From a virus: 31,088 bases of DNA. The number at the start of each line of letters is the position of its first letter. The stretch's first letter is position 1. The stretch spans positions 1-31,088 of IMG/VR virus record IMGVR_UViG_3300035183_001037; one strand, written 5' to 3'. Of this stretch, positions 9,017 to 25,006 are shown in pieces. Below the pieces are notes generated by a model. That model saw only the letters and a list, made by a program, of their open reading frames with translations. It made no database searches and was not told the DNA's origin. The position numbers and the translations under genes are program-made.

Positions 9017-9315
9017 CGCTGAAGGACGTGAGCCGCGGTTTGGGGTCGCTGGGCACCGCGCGCGTCAGCGATGACGACGCCATCTGGTGGTCGGGCAAAC
9101 GCTCCGTGCAGGTGCGGCGCCTCCCGAGAGGATGGGCGGTGGAGCAGACGGTCTTCGACGACCGCGAGGTGCTGGAGATCGAATGCAAGACCGAACAGGA
9201 GGCAGTGGCGACGTTCTGCGCGCTTTTGCCGCCGACGGTGAAGGCCCGGCTGATTAGGCCCGGGAACGAGGGTTCGACTCCCTCCGGCGGCTCCAGATTG
9301 GAGGACGGAGAATGA
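9013..9315 (+). CDS. Hypothetical protein whose C-terminus is coded by tRNA-derived sequence
   Basis: A 100-aa protein starting at GTG 9013, supported by AAAGGAGG about 10 bases upstream and by GTGA overlap with the previous gene. It begins VTLKDVSRGLGSLGTARVSDDDAIWW. I do not recognise the family. The last 30 residues (LLPPTVKARLIRPGNEGSTP and on) are the typical reading of a tRNA 3' end (see 9228-9295), so the C-terminus was probably acquired or rewritten when tRNA sequence entered the gene. The stop overlaps the next ATG (ATGA). Confidence 0.6.
   Translation: MTLKDVSRGLGSLGTARVSDDDAIWWSGKRSVQVRRLPRGWAVEQTVFDDREVLEIECKTEQEAVATFCALLPPTVKARLIRPGNEGSTPSGGSRLEDGE
9228..9295 (+). other. tRNA-like segment: exact T-arm, acceptor stem and CCA inside a gene
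   Basis: Bases 9268-9284 form a canonical T-arm (GAGGG, loop TTCGACT, CCCTC). Then come the 7-base 3' acceptor strand CGGCGGC (9285-9291), a discriminator T and an encoded CCA (9293-9295). A perfectly complementary GCCGCCG lies at 9228-9234, a tRNA-like distance away. The 33 bases between cannot form a normal D-arm or a 7-base anticodon loop, so this is not a working tRNA. It may be a tRNA relic, the remains of an attachment site in a tRNA gene, or a tRNA mimic in the mRNA. Confidence 0.55.
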
Positions 9316-16009: not shown

Positions 16010-16411
16010 TTAGTCCAGCCAACCTTCTTCGCGCGCCATCCTGCGCTCCTCGCGGATCGCTCGGGCCTTGTCTCCGCGCGCGTGCTTCTCCGCGAGCACC
16101 CTGGTTCGCTCGCTCTCGTCGGCCCACTGCTTGCGCCAGAGGCCGTTCCTGTAGAGGTTCCGGCCCATGATGCGGAGCGTCGTGCCGTCGGACAGGGCGA
16201 GCGTGAAGGTGTGCTGCTGCTTGGCCTTGCCGTAGCTGTCGGCCACGATCTTGCCCGTGACCAGCTCGTAGCCGAGGAATGTCGGCTTCCGGAACGAGCC
16301 GCCAAACACCGCGCGCTCGAACCGGACCTCGTCGCCCACACAGGCGTCTCCGGTCGCGTTGATGGTGTACGTCTCGTCTCCGTTGTAGGTGGGCATCTCT
16401 CTCTGTTCCAT
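16010..16411 (-). CDS. Early hypothetical protein A (133 aa), predicted leaderless
   Basis: A 133-aa protein (or 128 aa from the second ATG at 16396). The N-terminal 90 residues are beta-rich with the stretch DSYGKAKQQHTFTLALSDGT. The last 40 are basic and helical (SERTRVLAEKHARGDKARAI). It has its own strong promoter: the -10 TATAAT ends exactly 6 bases before the first ATG, so the mRNA should start at or next to the A of this ATG. If the second ATG is used, a short leader with weak GGA would serve. It converges on the big tail gene with 21 bases between the stops. No family recognised. Confidence 0.65.
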   Translation of the reverse strand: MEQREMPTYNGDETYTINATGDACVGDEVRFERAVFGGSFRKPTFLGYELVTGKIVADSYGKAKQQHTFTLALSDGTTLRIMGRNLYRNGLWRKQWADESERTRVLAEKHARGDKARAIREERRMAREEGWLD

Positions 16412-16417
16412 ACTCTA

Positions 16418-16445
16418 ATTATACCACGATTCCGGGGTTTGTCAA
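16418..16445 (-). promoter_or_regulatory. Sigma-70 type promoter, module A
   Basis: On the minus strand TTGACA (16440-16445) and TATAAT (16418-16423) are separated by 16 bases. TGG precedes the -10 as an extended -10 element. It is one of three near-identical promoters (others at 22172 and 22779). Each has AACCC next to the -35 and, further upstream, a conserved CGCGATT..CGAAAAAAGTC box. The match to consensus is perfect in both hexamers. Confidence 0.9.
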
Positions 16446-16478
16446 GGGTTTCTGGAGACTTTTTTCGAGAATCGCGCG

Positions 16479-16511
16479 AAAAAACCCCCGGGACGAACGA
16501 GCGACCCGGGG
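16479..16511 (-). terminator. Intrinsic terminator for the 16549-18490 minus-strand genes
   Basis: Read on the minus strand, CCCCGGG (16511-16505) and CCCGGGG (16492-16486) form a perfect 7-bp stem with a 12-base loop, followed after one G by six T (16484-16479). This is a textbook rho-independent terminator. It lies just downstream of the 106-aa gene and directly upstream of promoter A, so it insulates module A from read-through. Confidence 0.88.
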
Positions 16512-16548: not shown

Positions 16549-16869
16549 CTACCCGATGCCCACCACCTCCTTGGCGATCATGTCGGCGATCTCGTCGTGC
16601 CCGGACGACCGGAGGTCGCCGTAGGCCACGATGTCGGGGTCGGCACCCTCGCGCGTCATCACGACCACGCACTCGGCATCCGGGTCGGCCGGGACGAGCA
16701 GCACCACGTCGGCACAGCCGTACGGCTGGCCGTCCCATCGCGCGGCCCAGACGGGCTTGGTCTCGGCGGTCGCGCGCGCCTCGATGGGTCCCCACCAGGT
16801 CAGGGCGTCGTGCGACGAATGGTGCGGCACGGTCAGTTCGGTCGGATCGATGTCGATGCGGTCTCTCAT
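16549..16869 (-). CDS. Hypothetical protein (106 aa), last gene of the Csx16-like operon
   Basis: A 106-aa acidic protein starting MRDRIDIDPTELTVPHHSSHD. Its centre, RWDGQPYGCADVVLLVPADPDAE, is a strand-turn-strand pattern, and it has a short C-terminal helix. The start overlaps the preceding stop by ATGA, so it is translationally coupled to the Csx16-like fusion gene. A strong terminator follows 38 bases after its stop. I recognise no family. Because it is the direct partner of the ring-nuclease-like gene, a related counter-defence or accessory role is possible but unproven. Confidence 0.6.
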   Translation of the reverse strand: MRDRIDIDPTELTVPHHSSHDALTWWGPIEARATAETKPVWAARWDGQPYGCADVVLLVPADPDAECVVVMTREGADPDIVAYGDLRSSGHDEIADMIAKEVVGIG

Positions 16870-17852
16870 CTGTTTCGTCTCCTAGTTGCTGTTTGGCGGC
16901 GCACGCCCTCTTCCCATGGGAGCCGGACGTCCCTGGGCATGGCCCACTCGGCGCGCCAGCCGACTTCCGCGCGCACCTCGGCCTCCACGGTCGGGTGGAC
17001 CTTGGCCACGCGGTCGCCGACGCGGAACTCGATGCCCTCTGCGGTCAGCACGGCCCAGACGCTGTGGGCGACGCCGGGCTCCACGCCGTGCCGCCGGAGC
17101 AAGGCCCCAGTGCCGATCAGCACGCCGGGCGTCCACGAGGGTCCGTACGGCTCGTAGTCGCGCGGCGACACCCAGACCGCCGTGCCGGGGTGCAGGGCGC
17201 GCCTCATCGCCGCGGCGTCGCGGAGCCTGTCGCTGGGAGGCCGGGTGGGCCGCTGCCGGATGCGGCATGCCCGCAGCAGGGCGTCTTTGATGCGGCCCCA
17301 TCTGTGGTGGCACTCGAGCGAGCAGCACACCTTGCCCCAGACCCGGCGGCCGCAGTACTTGCACCGCCCACGGGCTACCTCGCGATCGGAGATCTCGAGG
17401 AAGGCGTCGAGCGCGCGGCGCGCGAGGTCTTCGCCCAGCTCGTCCGCGAGCCTGCGGTTGTCCCCTGGGCGTCGGTCGCAGAGGGCGCGGAACGCGGGCA
17501 GGACGTCCTCGGGGATGAGAGCGATGTAGCGTTGCGTCCACCAACGTGCGATCTCACCCATGGCTCGCTCCCTGGTGACGCGGTAGACGGAGACGCCGAC
17601 CACGTGGGGCAGCATCTCGTCCGCCGAAAGGTCCGTGCCCCGAAGGTGCTGCGGCAGGTCGAGGTCGATGGAGACAACCGCGTCCGCCTCCGCGGCGAGG
17701 TGCAGCGGCAGAACGCCCAGCACAACCCGGCCTCGCACGTCGTCTGCGGAAGCGTGCGCGAGGACGGGGCAGCCGTCCGTGGCCAGCCCCACCCTCCGAG
17801 CGAGATCCACCAGTCCCTGGTGGCGGGTGATGATGACATCAGCCTTGGTCAT
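16866..17852 (-). CDS. Csx16 (VVA1548)-like domain fused to a zinc ribbon and C-terminal barrel; candidate anti-type III CRISPR ring nuclease
   Basis: A 328-aa protein. Residues 5-92 match the Csx16/Cas_VVA1548 family from memory: VIITRHQG (7-13), H33, GVLPLHLAA (46-54), LDLPQHLRGTDLSADE (64-79) and terminal VYRV. Csx16 accompanies type III CRISPR loci and has been grouped with ring nucleases that degrade cyclic oligoadenylate. Stand-alone family members are about 90-100 aa. Here a helical linker follows, then a TRASH/FCS-like zinc ribbon (C164, C167, C176 or C177, C181), an Arg-rich segment, and a barrel-like end containing GVLIGTG and EFRVGDRV. GGTGA precedes the ATG at 17852. It is coupled to the next gene by ATGA. 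A role against type III signalling is inference; a zinc-dependent nucleic-acid role for the C-terminal part is also possible. Confidence 0.65.
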   Translation of the reverse strand: MTKADVIITRHQGLVDLARRVGLATDGCPVLAHASADDVRGRVVLGVLPLHLAAEADAVVSIDLDLPQHLRGTDLSADEMLPHVVGVSVYRVTRERAMGEIARWWTQRYIALIPEDVLPAFRALCDRRPGDNRRLADELGEDLARRALDAFLEISDREVARGRCKYCGRRVWGKVCCSLECHHRWGRIKDALLRACRIRQRPTRPPSDRLRDAAAMRRALHPGTAVWVSPRDYEPYGPSWTPGVLIGTGALLRRHGVEPGVAHSVWAVLTAEGIEFRVGDRVAKVHPTVEAEVRAEVGWRAEWAMPRDVRLPWEEGVRRQTATRRRNR

Positions 17853-17857
17853 GGCGG

Positions 17858-18490
17858 TCACCTCGAAGCTCCGGCCACCCAGCCCGCGCCCTGCCCGTCG
17901 CCCCCGAGCATGATGTCCAGCGCGAGCTGGGCCCCTGCGAGGCTCGGCAGCCAGGTCGTCTGGGCTCGCAACGGCCCAGGTCCGTGGGCGTCGTAGTCCC
18001 ATGCCGCGTGGAACGCGTGGGCGTCCCTGTCGTAGGCGGACCACGACGTGCATCCGTTCGACGACGCGTAGCGCAGCACGTACACGCCACCGTCGCTGAT
18101 CGCCGGGGCCATCCCGATCGGGAGCGGGTTGATCCCGAAGAACAAGGCGCAGGCCTGCCCGAGGATCAACTCGTGATAGAACCTCTGGGCCGACAGCGGC
18201 GCGTCACCTCCGGGCCACGCCGCGCCCCAGTGGCGGAGCGCGTCCAGAGCCCGCTGATAGCCGAACCCGTTCGGGTTCTGCGACGCCCACCCGAGGGCAT
18301 CGGACGACGGGTCGTCGGCTCCGGCCCACACGGCGGGCGGAAGCTGCGAGCAGTAGAGGGCCAGCGCGTGCCCGGAGGGCTTCGCCATCGCCTGCAGCCA
18401 GATGGTCAGCGCGTAGCTGTTGAGCCCGAGCGCGTCGGCGATGTCGAAGAGGTCGTTGAGGCTGTTGAGGTTGCTGTGGTTGTCGTTCAT
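17858..18490 (-). CDS. Hypothetical protein (210 aa) heading the Csx16-like operon
   Basis: A 210-aa acidic, Ala- and Trp-rich protein starting MNDNHSNLNSLNDLFDIADA. The frame is open further upstream, but that part is antisense to the lipoprotein gene. The GGGAAC-N18-GTTGAA promoter ends exactly 6 bases before this ATG, which fixes the start and predicts a leaderless mRNA. The centre has LILGQACALFFGINPLP, a hydrophobic helix too polar for a clear membrane span. The gene ends 5 bases before the Csx16-like ATG, so the two are co-transcribed. No family recognised. Confidence 0.6.
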   Translation of the reverse strand: MNDNHSNLNSLNDLFDIADALGLNSYALTIWLQAMAKPSGHALALYCSQLPPAVWAGADDPSSDALGWASQNPNGFGYQRALDALRHWGAAWPGGDAPLSAQRFYHELILGQACALFFGINPLPIGMAPAISDGGVYVLRYASSNGCTSWSAYDRDAHAFHAAWDYDAHGPGPLRAQTTWLPSLAGAQLALDIMLGGDGQGAGWVAGASR

Positions 18491-18496
18491 GCCCCG

Positions 18497-18526
18497 TTCA
18501 ACGCCCGCTTCGGAAAAATGGTTCCC
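18497..18526 (-). promoter_or_regulatory. ECF-type promoter (site 1) for the Csx16-like operon
   Basis: Minus strand: GGGAAC (18526-18521), 18 bases, GTTGAA (18502-18497), 6 bases, ATG. The -35-like GGGAAC and -10-like GTT with 18-base spacing resemble the GGGAAY-N18-GTT promoters of SigR/SigH-type ECF sigma factors. Identical geometry occurs at 19433, 21785 and 23255. Confidence 0.7.
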
Positions 18527-18531
18527 GTCCC

Positions 18532-18561
18532 TGGCACATTTTCGCGGAATCGTGCTAGAAT
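18532..18561 (+). promoter_or_regulatory. Extended -10 promoter for the lipoprotein gene
   Basis: TAGAAT (18556-18561) preceded by TGC ends exactly 6 bases before the ATG at 18568. The stretch GGAATCGTG directly upstream is identical to the one preceding the -10 of promoter A, and TTTTCGC further up resembles its conserved box. The -35 is poor (TGGCAC at 18532 with 18-base spacing). It lies back to back with ECF-type site 1. Confidence 0.6.
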
Positions 18562-18567
18562 ATCGGC

Positions 18568-18723
18568 ATGCGGAAGCGTTGGACGCTCGGTCGGCTGTTC
18601 GGATGCATCGCCAGCATCCTTTGGACGTGCTCCGTGGTCGCGTCCTGCGGGCACAACGACGGAACGGTCCACGCCCGCGACGTGGAGGCGTGGACCAGAG
18701 CGGTGGACGGGCAGGGTCGTTAG
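18568..18723 (+). CDS. Small phage lipoprotein (51 aa)
   Basis: A 51-aa protein with basic N-terminus MRKRWTLGR, a hydrophobic core and the lipobox VASC with Cys27, leaving a mature peptide of about 25 residues (CGHNDGTVHARDVEAWTRAV and on). It is the only plus-strand gene inside the minus-strand early block and has its own extended -10 promoter placed for a leaderless mRNA. Its stop overlaps the stop of the convergent 57-aa membrane protein gene. It could be a superinfection-exclusion lipoprotein or an outer-membrane spanin-like subunit. It is not proline-rich like classic Rz1. The lipobox is seen; the role is inferred. Confidence 0.55.
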   Translation: MRKRWTLGRLFGCIASILWTCSVVASCGHNDGTVHARDVEAWTRAVDGQGR

Positions 18724-18893
18724 CGGCTCTCAAGCTGGCTAGCCAGCGAACGGTTGGCCTCCGACAGGGCCTCCAGCTCGCCCTCCAGCCGGCGGTTGCG
18801 CTCCAGCAGGGCCGCCACCGTGAGCGACCAACCCACGATGACGGTAAGCAGAAGGCCGAGGAGGAAGCGTTCGGGCTCTGTGAGCCTGCTCAC
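18720..18893 (-). CDS. Small membrane protein with coiled coil (57 aa)
   Basis: A 57-aa protein starting at GTG 18893, overlapping the stop of the upstream gene (GTGA). One membrane helix (residues 10-30, LLGLLLTVIVGWSLTVAALL) is followed by a heptad-like coiled coil (ERNRRLEGELEALSEANRSL). The N-in, coil-out layout is that of inner-membrane spanins (Rz-like) but shorter than usual. The lipoprotein gene converges on it with overlapping stops, which invites a two-part spanin reading. A membrane anchor for another early protein is an equal alternative. Confidence 0.6.
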   Translation of the reverse strand: MSRLTEPERFLLGLLLTVIVGWSLTVAALLERNRRLEGELEALSEANRSLASQLESR

Positions 18894-19669
18894 AGCTCCA
18901 CCCCCGCTGGAGGGAGTCCGTCCACAGCCCAGTCGCGGGCTTGGACGTCGGGCACATCGGGCTTCTCCGGGTTCTCCGGGTGGTTGCCCGGGTATAGCTT
19001 CCACCCTTCGGCCTCGATAATGCGGTCCGCAAGGTAGCTGCTGGCGACGTCGAGAAGGTCGTCCTTCGGAAGCCAGAACGCATCGCCATCCTCCAGCGAG
19101 ATCGCCCACCCGTCCGGAAGCTCCACCCAAAGGCTAGCCTCCTCCTTGAGCACCTGCTTGAGGCCGGGCCACGCCGGGTCGCAGACGCGCCGCCTGAGTT
19201 TGGCCAGCTCCCTGCGGCTGCCCTCCGACAGGTCGTTGAGGGCCACCGTCGCGAACGCCGCCATCTCCGCGGCGGCGTCCATGGCCTTGGCGATGTCCTT
19301 GTAACCCGCGGGGTCGGACGGGTCGTACGGGTCGTACTCCGTCGCGAGCTTGGAGTGCGCCCTGGCGGCGTGCCGGAAGAGGTTGTCGAGCTCGTTGATC
19401 GCGAGAGAGGTTTGGCTGTGTTCCATGTCAGTTTCAACGCCAATGGCGTCTTCGGAGTTCCCAGACCGCGCCTCCTCCTCAAGCCGTGCGCGCACCGCCT
19501 CCACCACGTCGTCGTCGTCGGGCTCGCGGTCGCCCTCCCATACGGCGATCAGCGGCCTGTCCCCGTCCATGAGGCAGGCCACGGCGAAGCGGGTGCCGTC
19601 CGGCTTGCGTCCAGACATCCACGAGACGCGGCGCGTTCTGCCGCCGATCACCCTGACGATCCTGTTCAC
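18890..19669 (-). CDS. Hypothetical early protein (259 aa) with a likely second internal start
   Basis: The long form starts at GTG 19669 overlapping the HTH gene stop (GTGA) and is 259 aa. Residues 1-80 form a small beta-rich, basic-then-acidic domain (TRRVSWMSGRKPDGTRFAVA, then EPDDDDVVEAVRARLEEEA). An ECF-type promoter lies inside the frame and ends 6 bases before ATG 19426, predicting a 178-aa short form (MEHSQTSLAINELDNLFRHA). The C-terminal part has a helical middle and GWAISLEDGDAFWLPKDDLL. No family recognised for either half. The internal promoter suggests two separately regulated products from one frame. Confidence 0.65.
   Translation of the reverse strand: MNRIVRVIGGRTRRVSWMSGRKPDGTRFAVACLMDGDRPLIAVWEGDREPDDDDVVEAVRARLEEEARSGNSEDAIGVETDMEHSQTSLAINELDNLFRHAARAHSKLATEYDPYDPSDPAGYKDIAKAMDAAAEMAAFATVALNDLSEGSRRELAKLRRRVCDPAWPGLKQVLKEEASLWVELPDGWAISLEDGDAFWLPKDDLLDVASSYLADRIIEAEGWKLYPGNHPENPEKPDVPDVQARDWAVDGLPPAGVEL
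19433..19462 (-). promoter_or_regulatory. ECF-type promoter (site 2), internal to a gene
   Basis: Minus strand: GGGAAC (19462-19457), 18 bases, GTTGAA (19438-19433), 6 bases, ATG at 19426. It lies wholly within the open frame of the 259-aa protein, where it encodes part of SGNSEDAIGVETD. The exact spacing shared with three other sites argues that it is functional despite being inside coding sequence. Confidence 0.65.
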
Positions 19670-19995
19670 AGGCTGTACCTCGTCGGGCTTCCATCGGTGC
19701 GCGGACGCCCGTAGACCCTGCCCAGGTCGTGCAGCGCGCGCGAGATCCGGCTCTGCGTCAGACCGAGCTCGGCGACCAGCTCCGCCTGCGTCATCGGCCT
19801 TTGCGAGATCAGGGCCGCGACCCGCTCGACGGTGGGCATCCGCCTCGGGCTGGACGGCCTCTTGAGCGACGGGTCCACCGGGACGATCAGCCCTCCTTCG
19901 CGCCGCAGACGCCCGTCCCGGAGCATCCTGTTGACCGTGGTGACCGAGACGCCCAGATCCTCGGCCGCGCTCCACGCCGTGCGCCAGCCCGTCAC
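19666..19995 (-). CDS. DNA-binding regulator with two helix-turn-helix motifs (109 aa)
   Basis: A 109-aa basic protein, GTG start at 19995 overlapping the RecT stop. An N-terminal HTH (residues about 7-30, AWSAAEDLGVSVTTVNRMLR) resembles excisionase/MerR-like motifs. A second winged-helix-like motif (about 65-95, MTQAELVAELGLTQSRISRA) ends with a basic wing GRPRTDGSPTRYSL. It is embedded in the recombination operon with GTGA couplings on both sides. It probably regulates early transcription, possibly through the repeated promoter boxes nearby, but its target is unknown. Confidence 0.72.
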   Translation of the reverse strand: MTGWRTAWSAAEDLGVSVTTVNRMLRDGRLRREGGLIVPVDPSLKRPSSPRRMPTVERVAALISQRPMTQAELVAELGLTQSRISRALHDLGRVYGRPRTDGSPTRYSL

Positions 19996-20870
19996 CGCTG
20001 CGCCTCCCTCTCGAGGCCCCACTCGGCCAGTCCCTCGTCAGGCAGAGACGCCAGCCGTCTGAGCTCCGTCTCTCCGAGCTCGTGCAGCGACCTCCCCTGC
20101 AGGATGCGGTGCGTCGCCGATTTGGCGCGCCATCTGTCTGGGTCGACGACCCTGAGGCCCATCCGCGGCTCGTCGGGGTCCACGGCGCGCACGTGCTCCT
20201 CCTCCATGGCGGCGCGCTGCTCGTCGCCCTCCGGATCGTCGCGATCGGGACTTGTCGGCTCCGGCTGTCGGGCTTGAACAGGCTGACGCTGGGTGGCGGC
20301 CTCCATCTCCTCCGCGATGTAGAGGCCCGCCAGCGCGTCGGGGAACGCCCGGCGCAGTGCGAGCATCTCCGCGCATTTGGCGAGCATCAGGTCGGGCTTG
20401 GATGCCCACCCCTGCGACACGCCCCCGTCGCGGCCCTTGGGCGCGTACGTGGGCCAGGTTGCCACCGTGTACAGCGGCGCGGTGAACGTGGAGCGGATCA
20501 CACCGACCTTGGCCGCGTACGGGAACCCCGGGCCGCGCCAGACGTCGACCCACGGCGAACCCTGCTCAGGGGCTGTCCACACATGCTCCGTCTCGCCCGC
20601 GAACTGCCCAGTGCGAACCGCCGCGTACCGCGCCCCGTCGATGGTCACGTACGGGTGCAGGACGTTCCGCTTGGCCTCCGCGCTCCACCTCAGCATCGGG
20701 TAGATGTGGTTGGCGAGCGGGTCCAATTGGCGGATGAGGCAGACGGCCTTGAAATGCTCGAACTGGTCGTCGTCGAGGCTCCTGCACACGGTCTCGCGCA
20801 CGATGCGCCAGTACTCGTGGTCGTCGCGCTCGATCTTCCTATGCTCGAAGGTGAATGTGGTTTCTTCCAT
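19992..20870 (-). CDS. RecT/Bet-family single-strand annealing protein
   Basis: A 292-aa ssDNA-annealing recombinase. The N-terminal 180 residues match the RecT/lambda Bet family: KAVCLIRQLDPLANHIYPML, then YVTIDGARYAAVRTG, and the signature GWASKPDLMLAKCAEMLALR with AFPDALAGLYIAEEM. The C-terminal 110 residues are an acidic, variable tail that probably binds partners. GGGAGATAGCT before the ATG at 20870 is the ribosome site. It pairs with the YqaJ exonuclease 2 bases upstream, the usual two-gene recombination module used for replication-linked repair and concatemer formation. Confidence 0.88.
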   Translation of the reverse strand: MEETTFTFEHRKIERDDHEYWRIVRETVCRSLDDDQFEHFKAVCLIRQLDPLANHIYPMLRWSAEAKRNVLHPYVTIDGARYAAVRTGQFAGETEHVWTAPEQGSPWVDVWRGPGFPYAAKVGVIRSTFTAPLYTVATWPTYAPKGRDGGVSQGWASKPDLMLAKCAEMLALRRAFPDALAGLYIAEEMEAATQRQPVQARQPEPTSPDRDDPEGDEQRAAMEEEHVRAVDPDEPRMGLRVVDPDRWRAKSATHRILQGRSLHELGETELRRLASLPDEGLAEWGLEREAQR

Positions 20871-20872
20871 AG

Positions 20873-21778
20873 CTATCTCCCTATCTTGATTCTGAAAACC
20901 CGCGCGCCCGGCCTCTCGGTCGTGTGCCGGGCGATCTGCTCGTCGGTCGCGCCGAGCTCCGCCGCGATCGCCTGCCAGTCGACCACCGCGGTGGGCCTGT
21001 TTCGCCGCCACGAGACCTCACCCCCGCCGGGCAACCTCAGCACGCTGCTGTCACCCATGCGACTCTTGAGCGCGGCCTCCAGCTCCTCGACGCGGGTCTC
21101 GGCCTCGCGGAGCGCGGCCTTGGCGTCGAGGAGCTCCAGCACCGTCTGCTCGTCCTCGGGCGTGGCGTCCAGCGGCGGAGCGAGCGCGGGCTCCGCGTGC
21201 GCGTAGGCCTGCGCCCTGTGCCAGTCCGAGTCGTTCGGCGGGACGTCGGCGACCACGTGGTCGCGCCAGAAACGGTCGGCGGTCTCGACGAGCTCCGAGA
21301 ACTCCTCCTCGTCCCACCGTACCCGGTAGGCGCGGAAGTCGGAGCCTGCGATCAGTGCGGCGAGGTGCCCCCTGTGGCGTCCGGTCAGGCCCATATACCA
21401 GAGCGTCTGGATCCGATAGGCCTCCGGGACGTCGTCGGTGTGCGGCGAGCCCCAGCCGTCGGTCGAGCCGGACGTCTTGCACTCGAGGATGCCCTCGTCC
21501 GTGGTGAGGAAATCCGGCGATCCTCCAAGGTGCCTGAGCTCCTGGTGGCGGACGGGGCGCGCTGGAAGGATGCCGACGCCCGTCTCCTCGGCGAAGGCGT
21601 CGGCGACGACGCGCTCCAGCCGAAGGCCCCATCGCATCTTGGGAGTGACGTTCGGCGACGGAGCGCGGCCCGTCTTGGCGAGCCAGACGCTCGTGGGGGT
21701 GGCCCAGCGCGAGACGCCGACGATCGCGGCGACGTCAGGACCGCCGAGGTAGCTGGATCGTTCGGGTCGTTTGCCCAT
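20873..21778 (-). CDS. YqaJ-family 5'-3' exonuclease (lambda Exo-like)
   Basis: A 301-aa phage recombination nuclease. It has the YqaJ-type start YLGGPDVAAIVGVSRWATPTSVW, a helix with E55 (GLRLERVVADAF), and the PD-(D/E)xK core with D89 (GGSPDFL) and E99-x-K101 (ILECKTS). Residues about 215-245 form a coiled coil (LLDAKAALREAETRVEELEA). It resects dsDNA ends so that the RecT-like partner downstream can anneal ssDNA. The start ATG at 21778 lies 6 bases after an ECF-type GTTGAA element, so the gene may be translated from a leaderless mRNA. Confidence 0.88.
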   Translation of the reverse strand: MGKRPERSSYLGGPDVAAIVGVSRWATPTSVWLAKTGRAPSPNVTPKMRWGLRLERVVADAFAEETGVGILPARPVRHQELRHLGGSPDFLTTDEGILECKTSGSTDGWGSPHTDDVPEAYRIQTLWYMGLTGRHRGHLAALIAGSDFRAYRVRWDEEEFSELVETADRFWRDHVVADVPPNDSDWHRAQAYAHAEPALAPPLDATPEDEQTVLELLDAKAALREAETRVEELEAALKSRMGDSSVLRLPGGGEVSWRRNRPTAVVDWQAIAAELGATDEQIARHTTERPGARVFRIKIGR

Positions 21779-21784
21779 GACCTG

Positions 21785-21814
21785 TTCAACAGCATGAGGG
21801 GCCGGGTGGTTCCC
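21785..21814 (-). promoter_or_regulatory. ECF-type promoter (site 3) for the YqaJ-RecT operon
   Basis: Minus strand: GGGAAC (21814-21809), 18 bases, GTTGAA (21790-21785), 6 bases, ATG of the exonuclease. The -35-like box is part of the loop side of the hairpin at 21796-21823, so hairpin formation in read-through RNA and promoter use at this spot may be connected. Confidence 0.7.
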
Positions 21815-21823
21815 GACCCCCTC
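21796..21823 (-). terminator. Hairpin between gene B and the recombination operon
   Basis: An imperfect inverted repeat around loop TGGTT (arms GAGGGGCCGGG and CCCGACCCCCTC) follows the stop of the 101-aa gene B. It is closely related to the hairpin at 22278-22298 (both contain GGGGCCGGGTGGTTCCCG). There is no T-run, so it is more likely an attenuator or RNA-processing stem than a strong terminator. Confidence 0.45.
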
Positions 21824-21843
21824 GGTCTCGGTCCGTGGTCCCG

Positions 21844-22149
21844 CTAGAACCGGAGGCTCTTCGCGATCTCCCGGCTCGGGTCGAACGAGCGGCCGCTCAG
21901 GACCGTCTCGCGGATCATGTCGGCCTCGCGCCGAACCAGCTCCACGACCCCCTCCTCGGTCTCGGGCAGGACGCCGGAGAAGCTATACACGGCGCGCCCG
22001 CGGCGGAAGGCGGTGGTCGCGAACGTGAAGGGCTTCGAGGGCTTCAGGTCGGTGAACCGGAGCTCGATGGTCTCGCCGTCGAGCACGATCTCGTAGCTGT
22101 ACCCTCCGGTCTTCACGATGGCGACGTTGTTGTTGGACTGATTCTTCAT
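21844..22149 (-). CDS. Early hypothetical protein B (101 aa)
   Basis: A 101-aa protein starting MKNQSNNNVAIVKTGGYSYE, with a small beta domain (EIVLDGETIELRFTDLKPS, then TTAFRRGRAVYSFSG) and a C-terminal helix. The frame opens at an ATG that overlaps the -10 hexamer. The ATG at 22149 is preferred because GGAGGA lies 8 bases upstream and transcription should begin only about 16 bases before it. It has its own consensus promoter. No family recognised. Confidence 0.65.
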   Translation of the reverse strand: MKNQSNNNVAIVKTGGYSYEIVLDGETIELRFTDLKPSKPFTFATTAFRRGRAVYSFSGVLPETEEGVVELVRREADMIRETVLSGRSFDPSREIAKSLRF

Positions 22150-22171
22150 GTCGTTTTCCTCCGACGCTTTC

Positions 22172-22199
22172 ATTATACCACACTTCCCGTGTTTGTCAA
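22172..22199 (-). promoter_or_regulatory. Sigma-70 type promoter, module B
   Basis: Minus strand TTGACA (22199-22194), 16 bases, TATAAT (22177-22172), with TGG before the -10. The spacer contains the inverted repeat ACAC-N5-GTGT, a possible operator. The upstream flank to about 22238 matches the flanks of promoters A and C. Confidence 0.9.
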
Positions 22200-22277
22200 G
22201 GGTTCGGAGGGACTTTTTTCGAAAATCGCGGAAAATCGCCCGAAGGGCCCAGGCGAGGGAACGGCGGCGAAAGGAAG

Positions 22278-22298
22278 GGGCCGGGTGGTTCCCGGCCC
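22278..22298 (-). terminator. Hairpin downstream of gene C
   Basis: A perfect 8-bp stem GGGCCGGG / CCCGGCCC with 5-base loop TGGTT lies 23 bases after the stop of gene C (22321). On the minus strand it is followed by CTTCCTTTCG, a pyrimidine-rich but imperfect U-tract, so it may be a partial terminator separating module C from promoter B. Confidence 0.6.
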
Positions 22299-22320
22299 TC
22301 CTTGGTCTGGTGGTGAGGCG

Positions 22321-22755
22321 TCAGTTCTGCCCGGTCTCCTCCTTGACGATGGCCTCGTACGCGTCCCGGTGGGCGCGGAGGATGTCCTTGGGGTTGCTCC
22401 TCGAGTCGATCCACTCCCGGGCCGTGCCGACGAGAGCCGCCAGCCGGACGGCGATGCGGCGAGCCTTGTCCGTGTCCCCACCCGTGCCCTGGGCGAAGGT
22501 CGCGGTCATCTGCTCGATCCAGCGGGAGCGGAGGTCCTTGGCCCAGGAGACCTGCTTCTCGGAGCCCTCCAGCTTGGGAAGCTCGATGCCCGCGCTCTGC
22601 GCGGCCTTGGCGGTCTCGGCGGCCTTGGCGGCCTTGTAGCACTCGGAGCACAGGGTCGTCCTGAGCCAGGCCAGCTTCCGCTCGCGCTCGTTGCCGGCTC
22701 CGAAGAGCTCGTGGGTCTCGGTGTGGTTGCAGCTGTGGGTGACTTCGTACTTCAT
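22321..22755 (-). CDS. Early protein C with N-terminal zinc-ribbon-like cysteines (144 aa)
   Basis: A 144-aa protein starting MKYEVTHSCNHTETHELFGA. C9/H11 with C36-x2-C39 (LCSECYKA) form a likely zinc site. An Ala/Lys helix and KLEGSEKQVSWAKDLRSRWI follow. Similar 'MKYxVxxSCGHTxxxxLFG...CxxCY' proteins are common in phages and plasmids of Gram-positive bacteria, but their function is unknown to me. AGGAGG lies 8 bases before the ATG at 22755; the ATG at 22761 would be too close to it. It is the first leftward gene after the divergent control region. Confidence 0.7.
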   Translation of the reverse strand: MKYEVTHSCNHTETHELFGAGNERERKLAWLRTTLCSECYKAAKAAETAKAAQSAGIELPKLEGSEKQVSWAKDLRSRWIEQMTATFAQGTGGDTDKARRIAVRLAALVGTAREWIDSRSNPKDILRAHRDAYEAIVKEETGQN

Positions 22756-22778
22756 CGTCATTTCCTCCTGACACTCTC

Positions 22779-22806
22779 ATTATACCACACTTCCGGGGCT
22801 TGTCAA
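22779..22806 (-). promoter_or_regulatory. Sigma-70 type promoter, module C
   Basis: Minus strand TTGACA (22806-22801), 16 bases, TATAAT (22784-22779), TGG before the -10. The predicted leader of about 17 bases holds AGGAGG. The flank to about 22845 carries the shared AAAAAAGTC box. This is the outermost leftward promoter and lies in the divergent region facing the plus-strand replication genes. Confidence 0.9.
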
Positions 22807-22871
22807 GGGTTCTGGGCGACTTTTTTCGCAAATCGCGGAAAATCCCCGGAAATTGGGACCACAATGGGACC

Positions 22872-23243
22872 GTGAGACCGGAGGCGAGGCTCCAACACGA
22901 CATCGTCGCGTGCCTGCGGCTCTGCGGGCTGACCGTGCTGCAGACCAGCGCGCACCGCGCCCGGGGGCCGCTCGGCACCACGCCGGGAGTGCCGGATTTG
23001 CTCGTGCGCGCGCCCGACGCACCGCTGCTCATGTGGGGCATCGAGGTCAAGACGCCGCGCGGAAGGCTCAGTCCGGCTCAGCGGGAGCTCGCGGAAGCGG
23101 GAGCGTACGCGGTCGCGCGGTCTCCGGCCGAGGCTCTGAGGGCGTGTCGCGACGCGCTCGCCAGGTACGCGCCGGATTCGCGGTTTCTTCCGCGGGTCCG
23201 ATCGGTTCTGGCCCAGCTGGCACCCGGCGAAGCGGAGCGTTGA
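22872..23243 (+). CDS. VRR-NUC family nuclease
   Basis: A 123-aa protein, GTG start at 22872. The PD-(D/E)xK core is visible: GVPDLL with D42, IEVK with E58 and K60, and the downstream Gln in SPAQRELAEAGA (Q70). This is the VRR-NUC fold of Holliday-junction-like or structure-specific nucleases that phages carry near replication genes. The open frame extends further upstream over promoter C, but that part is unlikely to be translated. CACAAT lies 6 bases before the GTG and may be a weak leaderless -10. It is the first gene of the rightward operon. Confidence 0.85.
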   Translation: MRPEARLQHDIVACLRLCGLTVLQTSAHRARGPLGTTPGVPDLLVRAPDAPLLMWGIEVKTPRGRLSPAQRELAEAGAYAVARSPAEALRACRDALARYAPDSRFLPRVRSVLAQLAPGEAER

Positions 23244-23254
23244 ACACAGCGGCC

Positions 23255-23284
23255 GGGAACCAGCATGCGGCGCGGAGCGTTGAA
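23255..23284 (+). promoter_or_regulatory. ECF-type promoter (site 4) for the replication gene
   Basis: Plus strand: GGGAAC (23255-23260), 18 bases, GTTGAA (23279-23284), 6 bases, ATG 23291. It is the only plus-strand copy of the four-site family and lies in the 47-base gap after the VRR-NUC gene. The sequence GCGGAGCGTTGAA also occurs 40 bases upstream, but that copy has no GGGAAC at the right distance. Confidence 0.7.
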
Positions 23285-23290
23285 GATGGC

Positions 23291-24112
23291 ATGGAGGAAC
23301 ACGAGTCCCTCGTCGAATGCCACGGGCTCACAGGCCCGTTCTACCCCGTGCCGGAGTGGCTCGCGCGGACGGATCTGCCGTTCGGCGCGAAGATGTTCTT
23401 CGCCTACCTGCTGTTCTGCGTGCTGACGAAGCGGGACGTCCCGCCCATCTCCGAGATCGCGGAGCAGATCGGGATGACCAAGGCCGCCGCGGTGCGGAAT
23501 CTGCAGCTTCTGCGCGAGGCCGGATTCGTACAGACGGAGCGCACGCGCACCGCGCCAGTTAGGCTGATCTACCGCCTCTACCAGCCAGCTTCGAGCCTCA
23601 GGCCGCTCCAGGCGTCGGAGTCGGCAGCGGATCGGTGCATCCAGTACACCGCCGACGGTCTAGAAAGCATGCCGTCCAACGGTTCAGAAAATACACCTTC
23701 CTTCCTTATCTATAGAGAAGAGAGAGAGAAAGATAGAAATACACCCCCCCCTGTTCCCCCCCAAGGGGGGAGCGGGTGCGATTCGGTGTGGCGGGAGTTG
23801 CTCTCGGTCTATCCCAAGCGGGGCGGAGGCCTCGGGCATACCGAAGGGCGGAAGGTGCTGGAGCGGCTCCTGAAGGCGAAGACCGACCCTGAGGCCATCC
23901 TCGAAGGCGCGCGTCGCTACGCAGCGTACATCCGGGCCACCAAGCGCGAGGGCACCGAGTACGTCGCGATGATCCCCACCTGGCTGCGCCAACGCCGCTG
24001 GGAGGAGGATTGGACGCCGCCGAGGGACCCCAAGGCCGAGGAGGAGGAGGCGAAGCGGCGGCACGCGGAGGAGCTCCGGGAGTTCCTCGGCCTTCGGAAG
24101 CTGGAGGATTGA
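23291..24112 (+). CDS. Replisome organiser / replication initiation protein with winged helix
   Basis: A 273-aa protein. Residues about 15-100 form a winged-helix domain (ARTDLPFGAKMFFAYLLFCV, then ISEIAEQIGMTKAAAVRNLQ and LREAGFVQTERTRT), as in phage replisome organisers and DnaD-like initiators. A low-complexity linker (about 120-160) is coded by the AT-rich/polypurine tract described separately. The C-terminal domain (VWRELLSVYPKRGGGLGHTE, then YVAMIPTWLRQRRWEEDW) is the DnaT/DnaD-like 'YP.R' plus 'PxTWL' motif found in such proteins. Site 4 promoter fixes the start. It likely binds the origin and loads the host helicase with the next gene. Confidence 0.82.
   Translation: MEEHESLVECHGLTGPFYPVPEWLARTDLPFGAKMFFAYLLFCVLTKRDVPPISEIAEQIGMTKAAAVRNLQLLREAGFVQTERTRTAPVRLIYRLYQPASSLRPLQASESAADRCIQYTADGLESMPSNGSENTPSFLIYREEREKDRNTPPPVPPQGGSGCDSVWRELLSVYPKRGGGLGHTEGRKVLERLLKAKTDPEAILEGARRYAAYIRATKREGTEYVAMIPTWLRQRRWEEDWTPPRDPKAEEEEAKRRHAEELREFLGLRKLED
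23685..23772 (+). other. Candidate replication origin inside the initiator gene
   Basis: Within an otherwise GC-rich gene this stretch is AT-rich and strand-asymmetric: pyrimidine-rich CCTTCCTT, a CTATAG palindrome, a purine run of GA repeats (23714-23735), then long C-tracts ending in C7-AA-G6. It falls in the linker between the DNA-binding and C-terminal domains, as the lambda origin does in gene O. No clear iterons are seen. The position and composition are seen; origin function is inferred. Confidence 0.45.
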
Positions 24113-24580: not shown

Positions 24581-25006
24581 GTGGACGAGCCGAGAACGCC
24601 GAGCGAGGAGGAGTGGGAGCGCGCGCTCAGGGCCGCGAGGTCGGCATGCCGCGCGCTAGGCCTGCGCGGCGACGAGCTGGAGGACGCCGCCAGAGACGCC
24701 GCGCTGGAGATGGTCGCCAGCGGCGACTCTCGCCGATGGGCCGCCGCCAGGGCCGCACGCAGGGCCTCGAAGCCGCTGCCCTTGACCGACCGCGAGCCGA
24801 GTCATGAGCTTCCGCAAGATCTGCTCTGCGCCGCGCTGTCCATCCGCTGCCGCCGCCTGTCTGCGTACGCCGTGCGCCGCGTGCTCGGCGACTCGCCGCA
24901 GGAGGCCGCCGAAAGAGTCGGGTATCGCGGGGTGCGGAACGTCGAATGGAGATTCAGGCGCGAGATGAGGAGGTTGCTGGACGATGCCGAAGACGCCGAA
25001 CGTTAG
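24581..25006 (+). CDS. Sigma-factor-like / late transcription regulator (141 aa)
   Basis: A 141-aa charged protein, GTG start at 24581. The N-terminal segment (residues 14-46, ALRAARSACRALGLRGDELE) resembles a shortened sigma region 2 with the acidic 'DExEDAARDAALEMV' helix. The C-terminal segment (about 95-132, YAVRRVLGDSPQEAAERVGY, then RNVEWRFRREMRRLL) has the HTH layout of sigma region 4 and of ArpU-like late activators. It stands between replication genes and the lysis/packaging genes, the usual place for a late switch. No confident family match; it is the only phage gene here that could recognise the unusual GGGAAC-N18-GTTGAA sites. Confidence 0.5.
   Translation: MDEPRTPSEEEWERALRAARSACRALGLRGDELEDAARDAALEMVASGDSRRWAAARAARRASKPLPLTDREPSHELPQDLLCAALSIRCRRLSAYAVRRVLGDSPQEAAERVGYRGVRNVEWRFRREMRRLLDDAEDAER

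Follow-up and report, generated by a model that had tools for sequence, protein, structure and literature searches.

Background

Phages SPO1 and T4 encode sigma factors of their own and use middle promoters. Among bacterial promoters, those of SigE and SigH in Corynebacterium glutamicum share the consensus GGAAC-N18-19-GTT, SigE requires a C at -31, and the distance between transcription start and start codon is 1 at P1clgR and 0 at cg3344; one of the SigE/SigH targets, cg0378, is annotated as a putative phage-associated protein (PMC10012870). In leaderless bacterial genes of Actinobacteria and Deinococcus-Thermus, the start codon follows a -10 box of the form TANNNT at a distance of about 12 bp (PMC3160421). 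Here we analyse four sites of related form and register in a window from an uncultured phage, the whole 31,088-nt stretch of IMG/VR record IMGVR_UViG_3300035183_001037.

Results

Four exact copies of a bipartite motif

The initial annotation had listed four copies of GGGAAC-N18-GTTGAA-N6-ATG with differing spacers, and both observations were confirmed by four exact matches in the window (Table 1), in which all 12 box positions are identical (4/4 copies). No further site lies within 3 mismatches of the motif in the window; shuffled sequences gave an expectation of 0.32 matches at ≤3 mismatches and reached four in 0 of 100 cases. Since the spacers differ, and the only invariant positions near the sites beyond the boxes are a G at -40, a G at -3 and a C at -1, the four sites are not one duplicated block.

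Four was also the largest number of copies attained in the window by any template when all hexamer pairs with spacers of 14-21 and gaps of 4-9 to an ATG were counted, and the same search on 2,000 shuffles (1000 dinucleotide and 1000 local trinucleotide-block) gave a maximum of 2. No other independent template of such shape exceeded 2 copies, the remaining entries with at least 3 copies being shifted versions of the four sites. GTTGAA occurs seven times on the two strands of the window, four times within the motif. At site 3 the first box (GGGAAC at 21814) is part of a terminator-like hairpin, of which a second example at 22298-22278 has no GTTGAA; that box may therefore be there for another reason as well, which slightly weakens this copy.

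Table 1. Coordinates of motif sites, sigma70-type elements and associated genes in the window
Feature	Position	Strand	Remarks
Site 1	18488..18526	-	exact match; precedes 210-aa gene, Csx16-domain gene downstream
Site 2	19424..19462	-	exact match; precedes 178-aa gene
Site 3	21776..21814	-	exact match; precedes recE and recT
Site 4	23255..23293	+	exact match; precedes replication initiator
Perfect sigma70 promoter TTGACA-N16-TATAAT	22779..22806	-	in 95-nt repeated module (22757-22851)
Perfect sigma70 promoter TTGACA-N16-TATAAT	22172..22199	-	in same module (22150-22244)
Perfect sigma70 promoter	16418..16445	-	in same module (16396-16490); TATAAT at 16423, exactly 6 bases before ATG of 16010-16411
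TAGAAT-N6-ATG	18556..18570	+	precedes small lipoprotein-like ORF 18568-18723
Csx16 (Cas_VVA1548) domain protein	16866..17852	-	Pfam PF09652, E=1.2e-17; downstream of site 1
210-aa protein	17858..18490	-	no family match
178-aa protein	18890..19426	-	no family match
HTH protein in recT operon	19666-20022		family searches
RecT-like recombinase	19992..20867	-	adjoins recE; 40 viral relatives, 37-49% identity; frame used in search, start not refined
RecE-like (YqaJ) exonuclease	20873..21778	-	PHROG 434, E=1.3e-65; Pfam YqaJ, E=3.3e-20
Replication initiator / DnaD-like	23291..24112	+	PHROG 270, E=2e-20; PHROG 1701

Plausible gene starts and promoter-like geometry

The GC content of third codon positions rises from the 60 bases upstream to the region downstream at every site (0.55 to 0.93 at site 1, 0.65 to 0.93 at site 2, 0.70 to 0.84 at site 3 and 0.70 to 0.88 at site 4), and because of this jump the ATGs of all four sites are plausible as true gene starts. 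No Shine-Dalgarno match of more than 3 bases stands at a usable distance from any of them, save a GGAG at -17 of site 4; GGAGG-like Shine-Dalgarno sequences are present at other genes, among them those at 444, 6528, 9312, 10367, 22152, 22755, 24114 and 24984. Earlier claims that the sites precede the recombination operon (recE-recT), the replication initiator and a Csx16-like operon held up, but the "internal start" assigned to 19433-19462 did not, as that site precedes an ordinary gene start. Csx16 is a component of type III CRISPR loci, and a counter-defence role of the phage Csx16-domain protein is conceivable. The gene next to recE is called recT here as a probable family assignment.

When +1 is set on the A of the ATG, all four phage copies have a C at -31 and GTT at -12 to -10. 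On that proviso the -35 element GGAAC with C at -31 is found at 4/4 sites, the consensus being actinobacterial; GTT follows at N18 from GGAAC at 4/4 sites and is preceded by C at 3/4. The sites also show the leaderless layout, with the -10 box at about -12 from the start codon and no Shine-Dalgarno sequence. In form and register they thus match what is known, independently, of ECF promoters and of leaderless genes.

Other promoters and probable leaderless starts in the phage

The three perfect sigma70 promoters lie in the three copies of a 95-nt module that holds the promoter, a common spacer and an A-rich block upstream; they share about 95 bases, whereas the four GGGAAC/GTTGAA sites differ in their spacers. 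A consensus scan found no sigma70-type promoter upstream of the four-site genes. Two genes have a sigma70-type -10 box exactly 6 bases 5' of the ATG (TATAAT at 16423, TAGAAT at 18556), on account of which the host seems to accept leaderless mRNAs. The lipoprotein-like ORF with the latter box (18556-18723, +) is divergent from site 1 and its product is possibly an exclusion protein. A separate observation is a sequence resembling a tRNA T arm and 3' end (GAGGGTTCGACTCCCTCCGGCGGCTCCA) within a coding region at about 9255-9291 (+), where ARAGORN reported no tRNA.

The proposed sigma factor

The product of 24581-25006 (+) had been put forward as a possible factor for these promoters, and this part of the earlier proposal found no support. 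It has no convincing match in Pfam, NCBIfam or PHROGs, and no relatives were found in phages or viral contigs. Its ECF profile score, obtained with a small profile of six sequences, was reached by 60 of 1914 shuffles, and the single-sequence structural model (pLDDT 62) gave no fold match, a fold search being meaningless at such confidence. The protein is predicted to be all-helical, and sigma region 4 can be aligned in register with its C-terminal half. A divergent protein of the sigma-4 kind is possible, although the evidence does not say so.

Relatives of the phage

Two or more copies of the motif were found in none of the other phages listed from the IMG/VR viral collection, and no repeated copies among 230 relatives and loci; of the viral-contig matches tested, 1 of 96 was at a gene start. 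The capsid, RecE, replication initiator and 24581-25006 proteins, used as queries against viral contigs, had no relatives there. No motif was found upstream of orthologous phage genes, in collections that hold no close relative or close orthologues of this phage. The best terminase matches in bacterial genomes, at 40-46%, belong to Armatimonadota, Chloroflexota and others, and at four loci of an Armatimonadota/unnamed-bacterium group (L071, L073, L074 and L078) the protease, portal and tail protein match too.

Sites of like geometry in one order of Armatimonadota

The full motif gave 3 matches in 291 Armatimonadota genomes and none in 301 Chloroflexota genomes, which is chance level overall. 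One of the three, an exact match before a photolyase-related gene (locus L231), belongs to the order of genome G033, represented by 19 genomes. As this order was picked after seeing that one match, a post hoc choice, the weight rests on relaxed patterns and a spacer control rather than on the first match. In the 19 genomes GGGAAC-N18-GTTG-N8-ATG occurs 9 times versus 0 for the reversed pattern, and GGGAAC-N18-GTT-N9-ATG 24 times versus 2, whereas the N16 spacer control shows no excess (6 versus 12 reversed). The latter N18 pattern gave 10 versus 8 reversed in 51 Chloroflexota genomes, again no excess. In the class to which the best terminase relative (G001) belongs, the count was 24 versus 14, which is weak. 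In 15 of the 24 matches in the order, versus 0 of 10 in Chloroflexota, the ATG begins a reading frame that runs for at least 100 aa and stays open for no more than 130 nt upstream of it; a stricter gene-start test was passed by 5 of 9 matches in the order versus the one in 96 of the viral contigs.

The genes behind these sites include two photolyase families, a lycopene cyclase, a phytoene-desaturase-like oxidase, riboflavin kinase/FAD synthetase (RibF), thioredoxin, DAP epimerase (DapF), a TetR regulator and a small HTH_36 protein. Taken together they resemble a regulon for light and oxidative stress driven by leaderless ECF-type promoters, and such regulons thus appear to exist; the geometry occurs before stress genes in this one bacterial group, which is not known to be that of the host. 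Most sites of the order lack the GAA that completes GTTGAA in the phage. The loci of the likely regulon are L231, L264-L271 and L273-L287; the surroundings of the small HTH_36 gene with the promoter (L266) have nothing in common with the phage. Four related Armatimonadota genomes (G125, G127, G129 and G168) all carry a near-identical GGGAACTTTTTCCGGGTAAATTCTGTTCTGGTGAGTATG, perhaps another conserved leaderless ECF-type promoter.

Discussion

The four sites are very likely genuine promoters, and it is likely that they are of the ECF class; granted that class, the factor that reads them probably belongs to the host and not to the phage. We cautiously favour the combined reading: leaderless promoters of the ECF class drive a second set of phage genes, and the factor that recognises them is most likely an ECF sigma factor of the host. 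The -35 box GGGAAC would occupy -36 to -31 and the -10 box GTTGAA -12 to -7. Transcription would begin at the A of the ATG, by an RNA polymerase whose host ECF sigma factor would be of the type seemingly running a light/oxidative-stress regulon in some Armatimonadota, and translation would initiate on a leaderless mRNA. The sites would thereby turn on recE-recT, the replication initiator, the operon with the Csx16-domain gene and one more operon, the last two of unknown function; control of this gene class would be independent of the three perfect sigma70 promoters. The motif, its rarity, the gene starts and the parallel bacterial regulon are seen in sequence, from which we infer transcription, its start point, the sigma factor, the host and the timing. 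Of the ECF-like leaderless proposal in the initial annotation, the geometry, the leaderless layout and the ECF form (SigE/SigR/SigH) are supported, independently so by the Armatimonadota parallel, whereas 24581-25006 as the factor has found no support. Points against the favoured reading are the lack of another phage with two or more copies in the viral collection, the scatter of terminase relatives over Armatimonadota, Chloroflexota and others with only 34-38% in the order that has the regulon, and the choice of that order after the fact, most of its sites missing the GAA.

Several other explanations were considered. The sites may be ECF-like promoters read by a divergent phage-encoded sigma factor, 24581-25006 or another orphan gene, in a classical middle-gene cascade. 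Twelve identical box positions in all copies are what one dedicated factor would lead one to expect, and the helical prediction with its region 4 register points the same way, but the missing family matches and relatives, the profile score within reach of shuffles and the low-confidence model without a fold match make this unlikely. A phage activator, for example the HTH protein encoded in the recT operon, might instead bind GGGAAC and drive leaderless middle promoters with GTTGAA as a degenerate sigma70 -10 box. Activator-driven middle promoters of this sort are common among phages. We nevertheless regard this explanation as distinctly improbable, because GTTGAA lacks the TANNNT pattern of leaderless sigma70 genes (PMC3160421) and the two boxes and the distance between them are those of a known sigma class (PMC10012870).

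More doubtful still is a role of the two boxes outside promoters, as half-sites bound by a repressor or some other protein: AAC on one side of the spacer is weakly paired with an inverted GTT on the other, and fixed spacing would suit a dimer as well, but a constant 6-base gap to the start codon, the missing Shine-Dalgarno sites and the absence of sigma70-type promoters upstream of these genes in the consensus scan argue against it. Chance or coding constraint has next to no probability and is refuted in practice; the pattern does arise by chance within genes of other viruses, but 2,000 shuffles never gave three copies, and here all four copies are at gene starts with differing spacers.

If the ECF-class reading of the four sites is true, phage replication would be tied to a host stress signal, and leaderless ECF promoters would be a regular class rather than an oddity. 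A further and rather speculative step, which we hold only tentatively, is that the replication and recombination genes of the phage are wired into a light/oxidative-stress ECF regulon of the host, so that host stress gates replication and repair. The putative Armatimonadota photolyase/carotenoid regulon with leaderless ECF-type promoters is, on the sequence evidence, a testable lead by itself.

Comparison with known systems

A literature search found no case of a phage with core DNA genes under ECF-type promoters. In SPO1 and T4, as here, a second promoter class serves replication and recombination genes, whereas this phage has ECF-type boxes and yielded no recognisable sigma gene. The leaderless TANNNT genes resemble the phage genes in the -10 box about 12 bp from the start codon and the lack of a Shine-Dalgarno sequence, but theirs is a sigma70-type box and that of the phage is ECF-like (PMC3160421). 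The Streptomyces SigR promoters (GGGAAY-N18-GTT), compared by consensus only, have the same box form, whereas the phage has no link to thiol stress. The SigE/SigH promoters of C. glutamicum are alike in both boxes, spacing, C at -31 and a distance of 0-1 base to the start codon at cg3344 and P1clgR, but they belong to bacterial stress genes, mostly with leaders, and the GAA after GTT is an addition in the phage (PMC10012870). The promoter class is already known; what is unusual is its four-fold leaderless use for phage replication and recombination genes.
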